Below, in pieces: positions 50,596-57,366 of a stretch of DNA of 64,000 nucleotides. The stretch is from NCBI RefSeq assembly GCF_026004055.1, contig NZ_BPIJ01000002.1, forward strand, positions 621,803-685,802, given 5' to 3'. Position 1 is the first letter of the stretch; each line of letters begins with the position of its first letter. The position numbers were made by a program, and so were the translations under genes. Origin of the DNA: Meiothermus sp. GTDB taxonomy: Bacteria > Deinococcota > Deinococci > Deinococcales > Thermaceae. The notes beneath the pieces are model-generated. The model made no database searches and was not told the DNA's origin. It saw only the letters and a program-made list of their open reading frames with translations.

Positions 50596-51744
50596 ATGAA
50601 GATTACCACCATCGTGCTGGACTCGGTGGGCCTGGGCTACCTGCCCGATGCCGTGCGGTTCGGCGATGAAGGGGCCGACACCCTCGACCACACCGTGCTC
50701 AAAACCGGCCTCGAGCTGCCCCACCTGGCCTCGCTGGGGTTAGGGTGCGTACCGGGGGTACACACCCTTCCCCAGGTGGAAGAACCGCTGGGCGCTTTTG
50801 GCCGCATGGTCGAGGTCAACCCCGGCAAGGACACCTCCACCGGCCACTGGGAGTTTGTGGGGATTCACCTCGAGCACCCTTTCCAGGTCTTCCCCCAGGG
50901 CTTCCCGGAAGACTTCCTGGCCGCCTACTGCGCCCGCATCGGGGTAGAGGGTTACCTGCTCAACCGGCCCTACTCGGGCACCGAGGCCATCCGCGACTAC
51001 GGCGAGGCGCACCTGCGCACCGGCTTTCCCATCGTCTACACCTCGGCCGACTCAGTCTTCCAGGTGGCCGCGCACATCGGCAAAGTGCCCCTAGAGACGC
51101 TTTACGCCTGGTGCCAGACCGCCCGCGAGATGCTGGTGGGGCCGCTGGCGGTGGCCCGGGTGATTGCCCGCCCCTTCGAGGGCGAGCCGGGGGGCTTCTA
51201 CCGCCGCGAGGACTTGCGCAAGGACTTCGCCCTGGAGCCGCCCCCCAACGTGCTGGACGAGCTAAAAGCCGCCGGGCTCGAGGTGGTGGGGGTGGGCAAA
51301 ATCCCCGACATCTACGCCCACCGGGGCTTCACCCGCGAGGTCAAGGCCGGCAGCAACGCCGAGGGGCTGGCGCGCACCCTGGAACTGATGCGCGAGCCCT
51401 TCGCCGGCCTGGTTTTCACCAATCTGGTGGACTTCGACGCCAAGTACGGCCACCGGCGCAACCCCAGCGGCTACGCCGAGGCCCTAGCGGCCTTTGACGC
51501 CCGCATTCCCGAGCTGCTGGCCGCCCTGGGCCCCGAGGACTACCTCTTCATCGTCTCCGACCACGGCAACGACCCCACCTACCGCGGCACCGACCACACC
51601 CGGGAGTACGGGATGCTGCTGGCGGTGGGGCCGGGGATGGCCGGGGCCGACATGGGCACCCGGGCCACCTTCGCCGACCTGGGGGCGAGCTGGGCCAGGG
51701 CCTTTGGGCTTTCCTGGGCGGGCCCCGGCACCAGCGTCCTCTAG
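50596..51744 (+). CDS. deoB: Phosphopentomutase
   Basis: 382 residues, alkaline-phosphatase superfamily. It interconverts ribose-1-P and ribose-5-P (or the deoxy forms) in nucleoside catabolism. Motifs: [13 protein letters not shown] near the start (metal Asp), [13 protein letters not shown] (phospho-Thr region), [16 protein letters not shown] and [20 protein letters not shown] (metal ligands). TATGCT is 6 nt before the ATG (leaderless pattern). It converges with the nicotinamide phosphoribosyltransferase gene (4-nt overlap), whose PRPP substrate comes from the same ribose-5-P pool. Confidence 0.94.
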
Positions 51745-53132
51745 GCGTTGGCCCGCACTTCCTCCCAGGTGTAGCGCCGCTTAATCTCGCCGTCCTCGAA
51801 GACCACCCGCAGGAGGCTTTGGGGGTGGGGGTTAGGTTCGTCAAGGGGCAGCTCGACCGTGCGGATGCCCCGTTCGTCTTTGATCACGTCCAGGCGGCCC
51901 CTCTTGGAGAGCTTGGAGGGGTCGTCCACCGGGCTTTTGCCCACCCCATAGGTCACCCCGTCCACCGTGACCAGGTGCAGCTTCTGGGCGAACTTCTGCG
52001 TGTCGCGGTGGGGGTGCTGCAGGAGGGCCCCGCCCATGCCGAAGGCCACGTTGGAGGCGCTATAGCCCCACTGCTCGAGCAGAAACAGCACCTTGCGGAT
52101 GGTGTCGGCGTTGACCCCGTCGCCTTGAATCACCCGTACCCCATTCAAAACCTTGAAACCCTTTTTGTTAACCGTGGCCCCGAACTTGGCCTCTAGGGTC
52201 TGCACCGTGCGCAGCACCACGAAAGGCGGGTCGCCCGAGTCGGGGCGGATGACCGCGGTGGCCCCGGAGCCTTGGATAAGCCCCCGCAGCTCCTCGCCGA
52301 TAATCTGCCCCACGGCCCGCTCGCGGTTGTAGGAGTCAATCACCATGGCGAAAAGCGCCCCCGGCTTGCCGAAGGTCTCGATCATCTGGCGGTAGGCCTG
52401 GGCCTCCCCCTCCGGCCCGAAGCTGGTCACGGTGGAGTGCTCCATGGCCGGAATGGAGTAGCCGGCCATCTCGGCCCCGTAGTAGTTGCGGGCGTAGACC
52501 AAGGCGGTCACGGTGTCGGTACCCTGGAAGTTGACCAGGTGGGCCATTCCCCCTAGGCCCGCGCTCTCCAGGCTGCTCACCCCGCGCGCCCCAAAGTCGT
52601 GGAGCTTGAAGGGTAGCTCGGCCTCGGGGTCGTCGGCGGTTTTTTCCAGGTACTCCTTGATGGTGTTGCGGATGGCCCAAGAGAGGGTGCAGACCGTGGT
52701 GGGGTACCAGACCGCGCGCAAAAGGGCGGTCTCGAGCCAGCCCGGCAGCCAGGGCACCTTGGGGTCGGTGCTCTCAATGATGACCAGCGGGTTATGCACC
52801 GGCACCACCGTCCCCTCCGGCACCGCCCGGATGCGCACGGGCAGCCGCCCTCCTAGCTCCTGGACGATGTAGCGCCAGCTCTCGTAGGGAAAGGGCAGGC
52901 CGTGGGCCAGAAAGACCTCCCGGGCCTCCTCCACATCGGCCAGGCTCACGCCCTTGCTCAGGTACTCGATGAGGAAGGCCTGCAGGCCGAAGAAGCGCAC
53001 GAAGTTGTGGTCGCCGCCCCGGCTCTCGATGTACCAGCTGGCGTAGGTCAGGCCCTTGGGAAACTGGGCGAAGTGGCTGGCCTTGTAGCTGTCGGTGTTC
53101 AGGATGAGGTTGTGGGGGTTGAGGCTTTTCAT
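51741..53132 (-). CDS. nadV: Nicotinamide phosphoribosyltransferase
   Basis: 463 residues from ATG 53132. It makes NMN from nicotinamide and PRPP. Family marks are [16 protein letters not shown] at the N-terminus, [16 protein letters not shown] (His of the active site), and [16 protein letters not shown] (PRPP site). The size is that of NadV/NAMPT, not the smaller NAPRT. It is the third gene of an operon with nrtR and nadM-nudix; its ATG overlaps the preceding stop (TGATG). The operon would recycle nicotinamide to NAD in two steps. Confidence 0.93.
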
Positions 53133-54142
53133 CAGGACTCCTTTGGGGGTTGGGGTGCGCGTCCTAAAAACCAGCAAATCTGTTGGTAGTGGTCCTCAAA
53201 GAAGCGGGCCTGGTGGCGGTCGAGCTCGGCTAGGGGCAGCCAGAAGGCCCGGGCCGCGTCGTCCTGGCCCTTGACCGGGGGCGGGGGGCCCTCCAGGCTA
53301 AAGTGGTGCCCAAAGCTAATCACCCGGCCCCGCAGGCTGCGGCCCGGATAGTCGAAGGCCTTGGTGGCCTTTAGGGCAGTGGGCCTTAGCTGCAGGCCGG
53401 TCTCCTCCCGCAGCTCGCGCAGGGCCGCCTCGAGCAGGGTCTCCTTGAGTTCCACGTAGCCCCCCGGTAGGGCCCAGGCGCCCTTGCTGAGCGACCCGGC
53501 GCGTTCGACCAGCAGTACCTGCTCCTGGGCTAGCACCATCGCGTCGGTAGCGACGTGCACGATGGGATAGGGGTAGCGTTGGTCGAGTGAACGGTAATAC
53601 TGGAGCGTTTTCCACTCGGCCTGTAAACGGGCAAACTCGGCGGTGGTGGCAAACTGTTCCATGAACTGCCGCACGGCCTCCGGCACCATGGCTTTCCAAT
53701 CGGCGCTCCCGGCGAAATAGCTATTGCGCACATCGGTAGCGCTCAGAGCACTCGCCACCCCACTCGGCTCAAAAGGCCAGTCGCCAAAGCCGTGCAGGTA
53801 GTAGCTGCTCTCGTCCTTGTGGTAGCCCGTGATGCAGATTTCGGCCCCTGGGCCGGCGATGGCCTCCACCGCCGCCCGCACCGCGCGGAACCAGCGGGGG
53901 TCGTCGTAGTAGTCGTCGGGGATGGCCACCAAGTGAAGCCGCCCCTGCTCCTGGGGCTCCAGGCAGGCCCGAATCATCTCTTCCCGCGCCGCTTCGCTGA
54001 AGGGGTTTTTGGGCGTGGGGTAGCAGTAGGCGCTCCCCAGCACCACCACCAGCCGCTCGTAGCGGGCCAAAGCGCGTTTGATGGTCTCGAGGTGGGCGTG
54101 GTGCGGGGGTTGAAAGCGCCCTATGAACACTGCGGTCTTCAT
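53132..54142 (-). CDS. nadM: Bifunctional NMN adenylyltransferase / Nudix hydrolase
   Basis: 336 residues in two domains. Residues 1-175: nucleotidyltransferase with GRFQPPHHAHLETI (residues 8-21) and SATDVRN (134-140, family form SxTxIR), converting NMN plus ATP to NAD. Residues about 190-330: Nudix hydrolase with the Nudix box from about G228 to G249, ending REETG (245-249), probably ADP-ribose pyrophosphatase as in the Synechocystis/Francisella NadM-Nudix proteins. It overlaps nrtR by 4 nt and nadV by 1 nt. Confidence 0.93.
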   Translation of the reverse strand: MKTAVFIGRFQPPHHAHLETIKRALARYERLVVVLGSAYCYPTPKNPFSEAAREEMIRACLEPQEQGRLHLVAIPDDYYDDPRWFRAVRAAVEAIAGPGAEICITGYHKDESSYYLHGFGDWPFEPSGVASALSATDVRNSYFAGSADWKAMVPEAVRQFMEQFATTAEFARLQAEWKTLQYYRSLDQRYPYPIVHVATDAMVLAQEQVLLVERAGSLSKGAWALPGGYVELKETLLEAALRELREETGLQLRPTALKATKAFDYPGRSLRGRVISFGHHFSLEGPPPPVKGQDDAARAFWLPLAELDRHQARFFEDHYQQICWFLGRAPQPPKES

Positions 54143-54927
54143 GCTTCCCTCCGAAAGCGGTAGAGCTCGGCGGGCCTAAAGCCCTTGCCGCGCTCGAACT
54201 CTCCGGTGGCTTCCAGTAGCCCCGAGGCCAACATCTTGCGCCGAAAGGAGTCTTTGTTGAGCTTCTTTTGCAGGATGGTCTCGTGTACGGCTTGTAGCTC
54301 GCGCAAAGTAAAGCGCTCCGGCAGCAATTCAAAGCCGATGGGGGTATAGCCGAGTTTGCCTTGGATGCGTCGCACGGCCACCCCCAAAATCTCGGCGTGG
54401 TCGAAGGCCAGGGAATACTTTTTGTGTTTGCCGTCGAAAATCTCCACATGGCCCGTTTCCTCCACCAGGCGTAGCTTGAAAAGGGCGGTTTCTTCGCTCA
54501 CTTCGCGGATATGGCTGGCCTCTACCAGGGCGTAGTAGGCCACGCTGATAACGCGCGTACGGGGATCGCGTTCGGGGTTGCCAAAGGTGTAGAGCTGCTC
54601 GAGGTAGATTGGATGACCCCCCACTTCTTCTCTGTCCCCTGTCACCCCCTCCAAACCGGCTTTTTGTCGGAGGACTCGAGTAGCGGCTTCATCCAGCGAC
54701 TCGTGCATTCGCACAAACCCGCCCGGCAGGCTCCAGTAGTTGAGGAAAGGGTGCTCCTTGCGCTTGACCAAAAGCGCCTCTAGATGCCCTTCCCGCACGG
54801 TCAGGATGACTACGTCCACCGTGACCGAGGGTCTATCGAAAGCACTGGCATCGTAGCTGTCCAGGTACTGTTGTTCTTGGAGGTAGCTGTCCAGGTACTG
54901 TTGTTCTTGGAGGATGCGACCCTTCAT
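54139..54927 (-). CDS. nrtR: NrtR, Nudix-related regulator of NAD metabolism
   Basis: 262 residues. The N-terminal Nudix-like domain (about 35-165) has a broken Nudix box: GGFVRMHESLDEAATR then RQKAG in place of REExG, the usual sign of a ligand-sensing NrtR that binds ADP-ribose. A C-terminal winged helix (about 185-262; FTLRELQAVHETILQKKLNK) binds DNA. The first 25 residues hold an exact tandem duplication (LQEQQYLDSY twice), from a 30-bp DNA duplication. First gene of the NAD salvage operon; a palindrome at 54953-54971 overlaps its promoter region. Confidence 0.9.
   Translation of the reverse strand: MKGRILQEQQYLDSYLQEQQYLDSYDASAFDRPSVTVDVVILTVREGHLEALLVKRKEHPFLNYWSLPGGFVRMHESLDEAATRVLRQKAGLEGVTGDREEVGGHPIYLEQLYTFGNPERDPRTRVISVAYYALVEASHIREVSEETALFKLRLVEETGHVEIFDGKHKKYSLAFDHAEILGVAVRRIQGKLGYTPIGFELLPERFTLRELQAVHETILQKKLNKDSFRRKMLASGLLEATGEFERGKGFRPAELYRFRREA
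54855..54914. repeat. 30-bp tandem duplication in nrtR
   Basis: Two copies of the same 30 bases (54855-54884, 54885-54914), differing at the last base only, encode LQEQQYLDSY twice in a row near the NrtR N-terminus. Confidence 0.95.
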
Positions 54928-54946
54928 CTTGGATTCCTTATCCTGG

Positions 54947-54975
54947 CCATCTTATATGCAAGAAGCATATATGTA
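54947..54975. promoter_or_regulatory. Palindrome upstream of nrtR, candidate NrtR operator
   Basis: TATATGC (54953-54959), spacer AAGAA, GCATATA (54965-54971), 26 bp upstream of the nrtR ATG and covering a TATAAG -10-like box on the minus strand. Its sequence is closely similar to the palindrome at 55150-55180. Confidence 0.55.
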
Positions 54976-55083
54976 AAATGCAGATAAATCAAGAGCCAAA
55001 CCAAAGCAACACATTTTGGGGTTCTAATCTGCAAAACGTATACAAAACCTATTACATTTGACACAACATAACCATCAAGTCTG

Positions 55084-55111
55084 TTGAATTTTGCACAAAC
55101 AGTGCTATTGT
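55084..55111 (+). promoter_or_regulatory. Candidate promoter of glnA
   Basis: TTGAAT (55084-55089), 16 bp, TATTGT (55106-55111). A TTGACA at 55058-55063 lies further upstream without a good partner. The 288-bp gap is markedly AT-rich. Confidence 0.4.
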
Positions 55112-55151
55112 GTTATCTCAAGCGGTGCTTCGGAAATAGTCCGAGGCGAGC

Positions 55152-55180
55152 CATCTTAGATGTAAAAAGTATCTAAGATG
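55152..55180. promoter_or_regulatory. 10-bp palindrome in the glnA leader
   Basis: CATCTTAGAT (55152-55161), 9-nt spacer, ATCTAAGATG (55171-55180), a perfect inverted repeat 36 bp before the GTG and 26 bp before the GGAGGT site. It can act as operator or as an mRNA hairpin. It is similar to the site at 54947-54975. Confidence 0.6.
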
Positions 55181-55215
55181 CTGCCAAAGACCCAGTACCG
55201 CTTCCCGGAGGTCTT

Positions 55216-57366
<2,151 letters not shown>

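Follow-up and report, generated by a model that had tools for sequence, protein, structure and literature searches.

Predicted NrtR operators link a nicotinamide-based NAD salvage operon and a divergent type III glutamine synthetase gene in Meiothermus

The window analyzed here is a stretch of 64,000 nucleotides from a genome whose closest named relatives belong to Meiothermus, a genus of hot-spring bacteria. Its minus strand carries an operon of three genes, nrtR - nadM/Nudix - nadV, which runs leftward from position 54927 to 51741. The nadM/Nudix gene (53132..54142) encodes a bifunctional NMN adenylyltransferase/Nudix hydrolase with PF01467 and PF00293 domains, which scored 290 bits with the NCBIfam PRK05379 models, under their 409-bit equivalog cut-off. 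The nadV gene (51741..53177, start codon uncertain) encodes a nicotinamide phosphoribosyltransferase (PF18127 NAMPT_N, PF04095). On the plus strand, glnN (55216..57366) diverges from the operon and encodes a type III glutamine synthetase (PF12437 GSIII_N, 244 bits). The 288-bp gap between the two units holds both of the palindromic sites described below.

The product of nrtR (54139..54927, minus strand) combines an N-terminal Nudix domain (PF00293, 49 bits) with a C-terminal NrtR winged helix (PF21906, 86.2 bits, cut-off 27). Both scores exceed their cut-offs, placing the protein in the NrtR family, and it is homologous to SoNrtR (3gz5/3gz6) and BtAraR (5bs6/5ddg). The NCBIfam equivalog NF050029 gave 174 bits, below its cut-off of 400; this model is narrow and does not define the family. 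The Nudix box is impaired, with V85, Q88 and K89 in place of the three catalytic glutamates, and V85 is invariant across 18 orthologues. Within nrtR, 30 bp are perfectly duplicated in tandem (54853-54912), which repeats LQEQQYLDSY at the N-terminus; the duplication is absent from aligned relatives.

Site 1 (54952..54987) lies over the nrtR promoter and reads TTATATGC-AAGAA-GCATATATG-TAAAAT-GCAGATAA. It can be parsed as two overlapping 21-bp palindromes, TTATATGC-N5-GCATATAT and ATATATGT-N5-GCAGATAA, with 15 bp between their centres, so that three half-sites result. Conservation points to a -35 element (TTGATT, 54987..54992, minus strand) and, 17 nt from it, a -10 element (TATGCT, 54964..54969, minus strand). 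The -35 element reads TTGACT or TTGATT in nearly all upstream regions of the family, and TTGACT in other phyla. The three half-sites cover the -35/spacer region, the -10 element and the start of the nrtR promoter, respectively, and site 1 is almost certainly an NrtR operator.

Site 2 (55156..55176) is a single 21-bp palindrome in the 5' leader of glnN, TTAGATGT-N5-GTATCTAA, with an AAAAA spacer (TTAGATGT-AAAAA-GTATCTAA). For glnN, alignment suggested a -35 element (TTGAAT, 55084..55089, plus strand), which a promoter scan did not return, and a conserved TGnTAnnGT block suggested an extended -10 element (TGcTATTGT, 55106..55111, plus strand). Sequence and alignment together indicate a ribosome-binding site (CGGAGG, 55206..55211, plus strand). 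Given this -10 element, transcription of glnN would start about 25-40 bp before site 2. The distance from the -10 element to site 2 is either 38-40 or 48-51 bp, a difference of roughly one helical turn, and the shorter one was found in two separate clades. The distance between site 1 and site 2 varies from 182 to 206 bp with no common helical phase.

The arrangement of nrtR, nadM and nadV with divergent glnN was found at 17 loci in 16 Meiothermus genomes, one of which (G018) carries two copies of the locus (C1, C2). A sequence-only reading of the window had pointed to two related palindromes, one at the nrtR promoter and one in the glnN leader; both are present in the sequence and were kept at all 17 loci. 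A degenerate pattern of the pair, allowing up to 3 mismatches, matched only site 1 and site 2 in the 64-kb window (chance expectation 0.00) and again only these two in the 3.18-Mb genome. When a matrix was trained solely on the first palindromes of site 1, site 2 ranked first among about 3,700 positions at 17/17 loci. The same rank at the same 17 loci was obtained with a matrix built solely from five outside nrtR operators. An NrtR motif upstream of glnN, conserved among relatives and recovered by independent matrices at every locus, makes glnN a predicted member of the NrtR regulon.

Across the 64-kb window, the three best places for the outside-operator matrix were site 1 in its two overlapping registers and, third, site 2. 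Fourth came a weak NrtR-like site at 55025..55045, whose score was reached by 1 of 200 shuffles. Apart from this species it was seen in a single relative, is not conserved otherwise, and may be species-specific. A genome-wide scan with an operator sequence model, which covered the best 150 candidates in most genomes and may miss weak sites, found no further place common to different genomes. Among the candidates scored, only site 1 and site 2 recur across the genus.

The assignment of the sites to NrtR is supported by loci in which nrtR and glnN are not neighbours. In G003, which belongs to another genus, and in G006, glnN is found at a different place and carries no site 2, yet nrtR keeps the three-half-site element on the same promoter. 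In G006, nrtR is followed by a gene for a PnuC-type transporter. The three-half-site element also precedes nrtR in Trueperaceae, Thermoanaerobaculia and Acidimicrobiaceae, and in the flanks examined there glnN was not found beside nrtR. Together with those of G003 and G006, these are the five operators from which the outside matrix was built. Since the element travels with nrtR across genera and phyla that lack an adjacent glnN, site 1 is read as the operator of NrtR. Conversely, no site was found at glnN in four Thermaceae that have glnN but no close NrtR (G001, G002, G004, G012). As a separate observation, nrtR of G003 is followed by a gene for the RNA 2'-phosphotransferase KptA/Tpt1 (L019:944-1495), an NAD-consuming enzyme that is apparently under the NrtR operator.

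A natural change in the recognition helix points in the same direction. NrtR residue 226 (LNK-D-SFRRKM) is alanine (D226A) in exactly three genomes, G008, G015 and G011. In these, an A-to-T change at half-site position 5 is seen in the outer half-sites of site 1 as well as in the left half of site 2 (3/3 each), whereas in all other genomes this position is A or C, never T. In the right half of site 2, the three D226A genomes do not agree at position 5. They form one clade (100/98), so that the co-change counts as a single event, although it is written in both sites. Residue 226 aligns with Arg180 of BtAraR. In the BtAraR-DNA structure, on a 27-mer with its centre at base 14, this arginine inserts at bases 8-9 (PMC4666351). 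If the register is the same, these bases would correspond to positions 5-6 of the 21-mer. What comparative sequence analysis shows is that the two sites exist, are conserved, share a motif and are linked to NrtR, and NrtR very probably binds site 2 as well as site 1.

The proposal of the sequence-only reading that one regulator, most simply NrtR, serves both units is strongly supported by the outside-operator matrix, by the element that follows nrtR, and by the D226A co-change. NrtR binding in this subfamily is itself a prediction from sequence, which leaves some room for another transcription factor acting on both sites. This is the least probable of the alternatives considered, because across the genomes compared it is nrtR that is found together with the element, next to various neighbours (KptA, PnuC, nadV) and in different phyla, and because the NrtR recognition helix co-varies with the sites.

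The second alternative concerns RNA. The glnN leader folds unusually well (z -4.67), and site 2 might be a leader hairpin, an attenuator or translational element, with only an accidental likeness to site 1. An outer RNA stem is formed by a 5' arm at 55120..55129 and a 3' arm at 55194..55203 (plus strand), the latter immediately before the ribosome-binding site. Its pairing is kept by compensatory changes, with a covariation score above that of all 500 shuffles. The palindrome of site 2 inside this stem behaves differently. Among 16 leaders, its RNA form loses pair 7 in 9 and pair 5 in 4, pairs with a double change occurred at the level of shuffled alignments, without the excess expected of compensatory change, and the TTAGAT-purine-pyrimidine pattern is retained within each half-site separately. 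The palindrome also matches outside NrtR operators at 17/17 loci, no terminator was found in the leader, and an Rfam search of the leader region returned no family at E<=1. A hairpin conserved at glnN alone, the alternative that had been named against the sequence-only reading, therefore accounts for the outer stem but not for the palindrome. As the cause of site 2, an RNA hairpin was rejected on the broken pairs, even though the outer stem is supported, and it appears highly improbable. Because the RNA pairs are often broken while the half-sites keep their own pattern, the preferred reading of site 2 is that of a DNA operator enclosed by a leader RNA stem whose conservation is independent of it. 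Apart from this, the leader RNA of this species (55117-55222) is predicted to form a three-way junction in addition to the conserved outer stem.

A more serious question is which unit site 2 serves. It occurs only where nrtR adjoins, a point that counts against control of glnN. Site 2 could instead be an auxiliary operator of the nrtR operon, acting through a DNA loop of about 200 bp between NrtR dimers or by raising local NrtR, with glnN incidental or unaffected; the weak third site between site 1 and site 2 in this species would fit such an arrangement. However, at nrtR of G003 and G006 the three-half-site operator stands alone, with no other motif match close by, and it is the distance from the glnN -10 element to site 2 that is phased, not the spacing between the two sites. 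Direct control of glnN is moderately favoured for these reasons. We regard the auxiliary role as rather unlikely and consider that site 2 probably controls glnN. In the earlier proposal that the regulator acts on both divergent units, the part concerning glnN agrees with the position of site 2 and is itself a prediction.

As a whole, the likely explanation of the sequence evidence is that NrtR represses its own operon and divergent glnN through site 1 and site 2. NrtR on the three-half-site operator would cover the promoter and repress nrtR-nadM/Nudix-nadV. A dimer on site 2 would repress glnN, most likely by blocking elongation or promoter escape, because the predicted glnN start is only a short way upstream of the site. 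A ligand bound by the Nudix domain, which has degenerated catalytically, would then free both sites and raise NAD salvage along with glutamine synthesis. By analogy with other NrtR proteins, this ligand may well be ADP-ribose. Actual binding, the direction of control, the ligand and the action of site 2 on glnN are what we infer from these comparisons.

The genomes with this locus also share a pattern of NAD genes. NAD synthetase NadE (PF02540), nicotinate phosphoribosyltransferase PncB (PF17767) and NadA (PF02445) were absent from all 16 of them, and NadV was present in all 16 (the genome analyzed here and 15 relatives). Eight other Thermaceae tested had NadE and PncB and lacked NadV, and four of the eight had NadA. 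By this gene content, nicotinamide appears to be the source of NAD in the 16 Meiothermus genomes, through NadV and NadM alone. This clean swap of the NAD route between the two groups predicts that the 16 depend on nicotinamide. The sequence-only reading had explained the link by glutamine as amide donor of NAD synthetase. With no NadE in any of the 16 genomes, glutamine is not the amide donor for NAD here, and that reason is contradicted. Resynthesis of NAD uses PRPP as well as ATP, and glutamine is required to make purines, but that this is the reason for the coupling is only a guess. The genome also has two other genes of glutamine synthetase type, so that glnN is not the sole candidate enzyme.

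NrtR proteins are known to repress NAD genes and to be released by ADP-ribose, with one responding to NAD, and a side branch of the family governs pentose use; operators vary by lineage (PMC4666351, PMC6800001). The Meiothermus system resembles the NrtR regulons of Shewanella, Synechocystis, Streptococcus suis and Mycobacterium smegmatis in its Nudix-like sensor with winged helix, its autoregulation, its palindromic operators of about 21-23 bp and its NAD-synthesis targets (PMC6800001, PMC4666351). It differs from them in operator sequence (TTAnATGC-N5-GCATnTAA), in that its autoregulated promoter has three half-sites, and in having a nitrogen-assimilation gene as a predicted target. The pentose regulators BtAraR and BtXylR of Bacteroidetes share the fold, their DNA-contact positions align, and they show that family members outside NAD metabolism exist (PMC4666351). 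Their ligand and regulon are those of sugars, however, whereas the main target of Meiothermus NrtR remains the NAD salvage genes. Nitrogen status and NAD synthesis are also linked by PII proteins, which act on glutamine-dependent NAD synthetase (NadE-Gln) at the protein level (PMC7196632). That link is a protein-protein contact on an enzyme that is absent here, while the Meiothermus link is predicted to be transcriptional and to run from an NAD regulator to glutamine synthetase.

No title or abstract was found that ties NrtR to glutamine synthetase, in a literature coverage without most subscription journals. The statement that no such link had been described also held among titles and abstracts on NrtR with glutamine synthetase, Thermus or Deinococcus. 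NrtR regulons have so far comprised NAD metabolism or, in the side branch, pentoses. We lean towards the view that, in a lineage now relying on nicotinamide salvage alone in place of the NAD-synthetase routes, glutamine synthetase has come under the control of NrtR, and that ADP-ribose, a signal of NAD turnover, sets ammonium assimilation via a downstream operator, which would be an unreported kind of transcriptional NAD-to-nitrogen link. If so, the operator at glutamine synthetase would place nitrogen assimilation, too, under a sensor of NAD turnover, in bacteria whose sole recognisable NAD route is the operon controlled by that same sensor, NrtR. With the sites, the motif and a natural change in the recognition helix all defined, the link can be tested by ordinary gel shifts.

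Finally, a partly conserved block lies between both promoters at 55030-55070, around aaaATGTACAtaaa and gTGACatttga. In most species this block departs from the NrtR motif, and it is possibly an activator site for glnN.
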